44,552 nt of DNA from Spirogloea muscicola. Lineage: Eukaryota; Streptophyta; Zygnematophyceae; Spirogloeales; Spirogloeaceae. The DNA is taken from positions 437,206 through 481,757 of the forward strand of contig WELB01000005.1 in the NCBI GenBank assembly GCA_009602725.1, read 5' to 3'. A program made the translations under genes and the position numbers. Positions within the stretch are counted from its first letter, which is position 1, and the number at the start of each line of letters is the position of its first letter. Positions 16,406-16,541 of this stretch are shown here, one piece after another. The notes beneath the pieces were generated by a model. That model was not told the DNA's origin. It did no database searches and saw only the letters and a program-made list of their open reading frames with translations.

Positions 16406-16418
16406 AGATCGGAAGAGC
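16406..16418. other. Illumina TruSeq adapter core (assembly contaminant)
   Basis: The 13 bases AGATCGGAAGAGC are the common stem of Illumina adapters. They sit exactly where genomic sequence stops and a 123-base poly-T run begins, next to an N gap, so this is artefact rather than biology. Confidence 0.9.
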
Positions 16419-16541
16419 TTTTTTTTTTTTTTTTTTTTTTTTTTTTTTTTTTTTTTTTTTTTTTTTTTTTTTTTTTTTTTTTTTTTTTTTTTTTTTTTTT
16501 TTTTTTTTTTTTTTTTTTTTTTTTTTTTTTTTTTTTTTTTT
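16419..16541. other. Poly-T run of 123 bases (assembly artefact)
   Basis: An uninterrupted T homopolymer lies between the adapter core and the N gap. Given its position it is most likely read-end artefact and not a genomic poly(A) tail. The long poly-Lys or poly-Phe frames across it are meaningless. Confidence 0.85.

Follow-up and report, generated by a model that had tools for sequence, protein, structure and literature searches.

An Illumina TruSeq adapter core and a T run where a contig meets a scaffold gap in the Spirogloea muscicola genome assembly

Genes and features at the scaffold gap

The stretch of DNA analyzed here, 44,552 nucleotides of the Spirogloea muscicola assembly and hereafter called the window, carries two genes that are both cut at one scaffold gap. 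On the left flank, an Ssb-like OB fold (PF21473) encoded on the minus strand is interrupted at a 13-mer, and the start of the gene is lost. Its first surviving exon piece lies at 16284..16403 (minus strand; low-side limit approximate) and covers positions 28–65 of the 97 positions of the Ssb-like_OB profile, while the second, at 15729..16115 (minus strand; high-side limit approximate), covers positions 60–97 and continues up to the stop codon. On the right flank, an exon of a Cmc1-like protein with twin CX9C motifs (PF08583) lies at 16952..17134 on the plus strand, with an approximate 3' limit; its 5' part is missing at the gap and the start of the gene is absent from the sequence right of the gap. 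An earlier note on this DNA had described one gene as truncated and a second as probably so, and both are.

Direct reading of the letters between these genes gave the three features at the positions that the earlier note had described. The 13-mer, AGATCGGAAGAGC, occupies 16406..16418 (plus strand) and is the exact common core of the Illumina TruSeq adapters; it is followed by a pure run of 123 T at 16419..16541 (plus strand) at the contig end, and by a gap of 410 N at 16542..16951. Four open reading frames of 219–328 codons in the list of open frames span the T run and the Ns, two on the minus strand (16217-17203 and 16285-17151) and two on the plus strand (16251-17003 and 16297-16956), which bears out the claim that false proteins are created here.

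AGATCGGAAGAGC matched nowhere else in the window when up to one mismatch was allowed. At that tolerance, shuffled versions of the window contained 0.04 matches on average, with at least one match in 4 of 100 shuffles, and the zero-order expectation of an exact match from base composition was 0.0014, in agreement with the odds of about one in a thousand that had been estimated before. Neither the read-1 nor the read-2 arm of the adapter continues from the core at this site (0 bases), the T run starting at once; such a continuation is helpful, although not required, for recognizing a truncated adapter remnant. Since no arm-specific base follows the 13-mer, the window's site taken alone amounts to 13 bases and their context. 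The 100 bases in front of it have a G+C content of 82%. Two flow-cell oligos and the Nextera adapter CTGTCTCTTATACACATCT had no occurrence in the window.

Other contig ends are visible in the same stretch. The window closes on a run of 20 G (44533-44552; G000:C5:481738-481757) that stands directly before a gap of 3,048 N, another homopolymer at a contig end. Joins of a single N occur at 8857 and 22672; the latter lies one base after a perfect 12-base inverted repeat, AAAGAGGCACTC...GAGTGCCTCTTT, read by eye, and the contig there seems to end at a hairpin.

The adapter core across the assembly

The window is part of an assembly of 153 Mb in 471 contigs, from which all sites of AGATCGGAAGAGC were fetched. 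There are 63, against about 4.7 expected from the base composition of the window, and the same pattern read backwards, which served as a control, had 0 matches in the assembly. At 43 of the 63 sites the core is followed by at least 3 bases of a TruSeq arm, where about 2 such sites would be expected, and both the read-1 and the read-2 arm occur. Fifteen sites match an arm over 1–2 bases, which is little informative, and five match none; in a few cases the final base of the arm match may already be part of the A/T run behind it. The longest exact arm extension at the 63 sites reached 12 bases beyond the 13-base core, and reads with longer exact adapter were probably removed by trimming. The Nextera adapter was rejected as a source, CTGTCTCTTATACACATCT having no match in the assembly, and AGATCGGAAG directly followed by ten T likewise gave 0 matches. 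Among the five sites without any extension (L012, L061, L036, L054 and L071, the last being the window's own), the core passes directly into T in L036, L054 and L071.

The sites are concentrated at gap edges. An N gap lies at most 150 bases away at 56 of the 63 and consists of a single N at 27 of these; one further site (L065) comes within 2 bases of a contig end, and four (L016, L017, L048, L051) run into other sequence with no N within 150 bases. Mean G+C content over the 100 bases preceding the 63 sites was 0.80, compared with 0.54 for 100-base pieces of the window. An A/T run of at least 20 bases begins within 60 bases after the core at 32 sites (19 T, 13 A); 31 of these runs are at least 34 bases long, 15 are 123 or 124 bases long, and none is longer.

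The 63 cores are split by strand into 45 forward and 18 reverse (p 0.0009). Long A/T runs, unlike the adapter cores, are divided nearly evenly by strand (286/287 and 278/318); the imbalance of the cores is left unexplained by the reading as an assembly artefact and counts against it.

Long A/T runs as a separate artefact

The earlier note implied that the poly-T followed from the adapter. We compared the window's run with long A/T runs elsewhere. T runs of at least 34 bases with a non-N letter before them were found at 573 places on both strands of the whole assembly, and those with a non-N letter after them at 596, runs without N on either side entering both counts. A first sample (sample A) comprised 40 loci with 41 runs, namely the first 41 listed of the 573 minus the window's own; a second (sample B) comprised 33 loci with 33 runs from the first 41 listed of the 596, leaving aside a known adapter site and the seven places that fell within loci already fetched.

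Sixty-seven of the 74 sampled runs adjoin an N gap, with T towards the gap in 34 and A in 33, and the 100 bases in front of these 67 have a mean G+C content of 80%. Run length was 121–124 in 35 of the 74 and greater in one; this ceiling suggests a limit set by the assembler, with k about 125. No adapter prefix of at least 4 bases precedes 71 of the 74 runs: there was none among the 41 runs of sample A and three among the 33 of sample B (5, 7 and 10 bases), the 5-base prefix being one that could be due to chance. Adapter prefixes of 7–11 bases before A runs were present at no fewer than five distinct places among the matches listed. Ending in a single repeated letter is thus an artefact that contigs show generally at G+C-rich stretches, and an adapter precedes it in a minority of cases. 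The idea that the poly-T is a direct consequence of the adapter was rejected, as long A/T runs end contigs at many adapter-free gaps. Because most of the sampled gap-edge runs have no adapter, we regard the T run of the window as a separate and commoner artefact that happens to stand behind the adapter here.

In sample A, 34 of 35 gap-edge runs had T towards the gap. We discarded this apparent preference as a bias of the search pattern, which called for a non-N letter ahead of the Ts; in sample B, all 32 gap-edge runs had A towards the gap. An over-long exception stands apart from these: a run of 269 A (L109; G000:C3:902700-903600) has no N within its 901-base locus and exceeds the ceiling of 121–124 bases, which counts against an artefact that arises at gaps and stops at that length.

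Homologous copies without adapter

A second, diverged copy of the window's locus lies in opposite orientation on scaffold C138. Positions 40000-71000 of C138 align with 5294-44462 of the window in pieces that are 73–90% identical and nearly all in the same order; about 7 kb of the window (~19.7–26.9 kb) has a single short match in this fetched part. The similarity runs to position 16404 of the window; in the 121 bases beyond, C138 encodes the beginning of the OB-fold domain. The Pfam match to Ssb-like_OB accordingly begins at profile position 5 on C138 and at 28 in the window, so that C138 additionally holds positions 5–27, which the window is missing. The sole solved structure matched by the OB-fold piece of C138 is 1wjj, a protein named F20O9.120, presumably the Arabidopsis protein At4g28440. 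In the 121 bases past the breakpoint, up to its own gap of 83 N, C138 has neither adapter nor T run. The break had been placed exactly at the 13-mer; the OB-fold coding sequence is indeed broken there, but base 16405 (A), one past the end of the similarity, may be genome or artefact.

Between the Cmc1-like and OB-fold genes on C138, beside the 83-N gap, lies a lone N-terminal piece of LUC7 (L083; G000:C138:60307-60444). At three other LUC7 loci (C37, C98 and C130) the C-terminal piece follows about 3 kb on, and none was reported on C138; the piece is possibly a small contig that has been misplaced. Beyond the 121 bases, C138 is an imperfect yardstick because of its own gap and this stray piece.

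A search with the flank of another adapter site, L035, found two further copies, on C32 (95% identical) and C119 (88%). C119 reads through the L035 junction for at least 260 bases further without adapter, A/T run of at least 20 bases or N; C32 is uninformative, since an N stretch ends its match 61 bases short of the junction. The adapter is therefore missing from homologous copies at two sites, the window's locus (on C138) and L035 (on C119). Given the copy on C138 and the three copies at L035, haplotypes or hybrid subgenomes may have been assembled separately here.

These comparisons bear on a rival view, in which the 13-mer would be a genomic word that matches adapter by chance, the T run a genuine tract such as a retroposed tail, and the gap next to them unrelated. 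Chance words do seem to occur among the 63 sites: L012 and L061 look like such genomic words, with no adapter arm, long A/T run or N nearby, and at L016 the arm match is one base long and no N is near. The assembly is also rich in long A/T runs, the 269-A run among them lying away from any gap. The window's site, however, carries the T run and the gap that are typical of the artefact group, its length of 123 sits at the common ceiling, and the second copy on C138 has neither the 13-mer nor the T run. A chance match was rejected on the genome-wide counts together with the sister copies, and we consider the whole account of a chance word beside a genuine tract extremely improbable.

Adapter junctions shared between pairs of sites

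Eight pairs among the 63 sites have a common adapter junction. Two are near-identical, one being identical over 450 bases and the other 97.6% identical. The remaining six are diverged: identity is 88–92% along some 450 bases in five, and 91% in L015/L026, where the comparison spans only 137. Such pairs, together with the two mismatches that two of the shared-junction pairs retain less than 26 bases from the junction, would fit genuine adapter contamination whose junction is set by the DNA itself, if polymerase, while libraries or clusters were amplified, stopped at fixed, structured, GCC-rich positions and the same stops recurred in divergent copies. Over the last 60 bases, however, the six diverged pairs show 5 differences in 360 positions, a much lower rate than at 200–300 bases from the junction (78 of 600, or 54 of 500 without L015/L026), and for this reason the use of the same reads to extend both copies is the simplest reading. 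Moreover, both adapter tails break off at the same base in three pairs (L017/L051, L028/L055 and L034/L057), and in L028/L055 the same base is missing from both; tails cut alike in this way suggest one read family. In the other three of the six pairs, an N or an A run blocks full comparison of the tails after a few bases. We regard junctions fixed by the DNA as unlikely. Slightly less likely still is the broader proposal that adapter and A/T-run junctions mark fixed polymerase-failure sites on GCC-rich structured DNA and that shared junctions are independent events; if it were true, the artefacts would map unusual DNA structure.

An assembly artefact and its meaning for data quality

We conclude, with a probability of about 98%, that the window's piece is an assembly artefact, in which a contig bordering a scaffold gap ends in a TruSeq adapter core and a meaningless T run. 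The earlier identification of untrimmed Illumina adapter is confirmed by the 63 copies, most of them with TruSeq arms and at gap edges, and by the two sister copies that have no adapter.

Such ends may have arisen where very G+C-rich stretches yielded few good reads. The contig would then have been extended by the last reads available, some from inserts shorter than the read, which would run into adapter, and others collapsing to one letter, A or T, after signal loss. Following these reads, a de Bruijn assembler (k about 125) would reach a self-looping one-letter word and stop after 121–124 letters, and scaffolding would then put Ns behind the false contig end.

The significance lies in data quality only, this being a technical error and not biology. 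The assembly contains about 60 adapter remnants (the 63 matches minus a few chance words). The genome-wide counts and the sampled runs point to several hundred long A/T tips as well, and both kinds lie mostly at gap edges in G+C-rich stretches. In the window, two genes are cut by the gap and the T run gives rise to false open frames. We advise masking adapter remnants and A/T tips when genes, homopolymers or copy differences are counted.

Comparison with known systems

The part of the literature that our search reached, on adapter and homopolymer in assemblies, held no account of such a pattern. A related description is that of "T accumulation", an over-calling of thymine in late Illumina cycles (Kircher et al. 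2009, PMC2745764). The likeness lies in a drift of the calls towards a single letter as the signal fails; the paper concerns early Genome Analyzer chemistry, which may not be that of the instrument used here, and mismatches, not tails of 120 bases. Over-calling of T loses support because A is as common as T towards gaps, and with 33 A and 34 T among the 67 gap-edge runs, T accumulation is unsupported as the cause. The other parallel is Illumina TruSeq adapter read-through left in an assembly. Unlike a typical case, the window's site has no arm-specific base, the T run following the core immediately; it shares with read-through the 13-base core, the position at a contig end and gap and, through the other sites of the assembly, both TruSeq arms.
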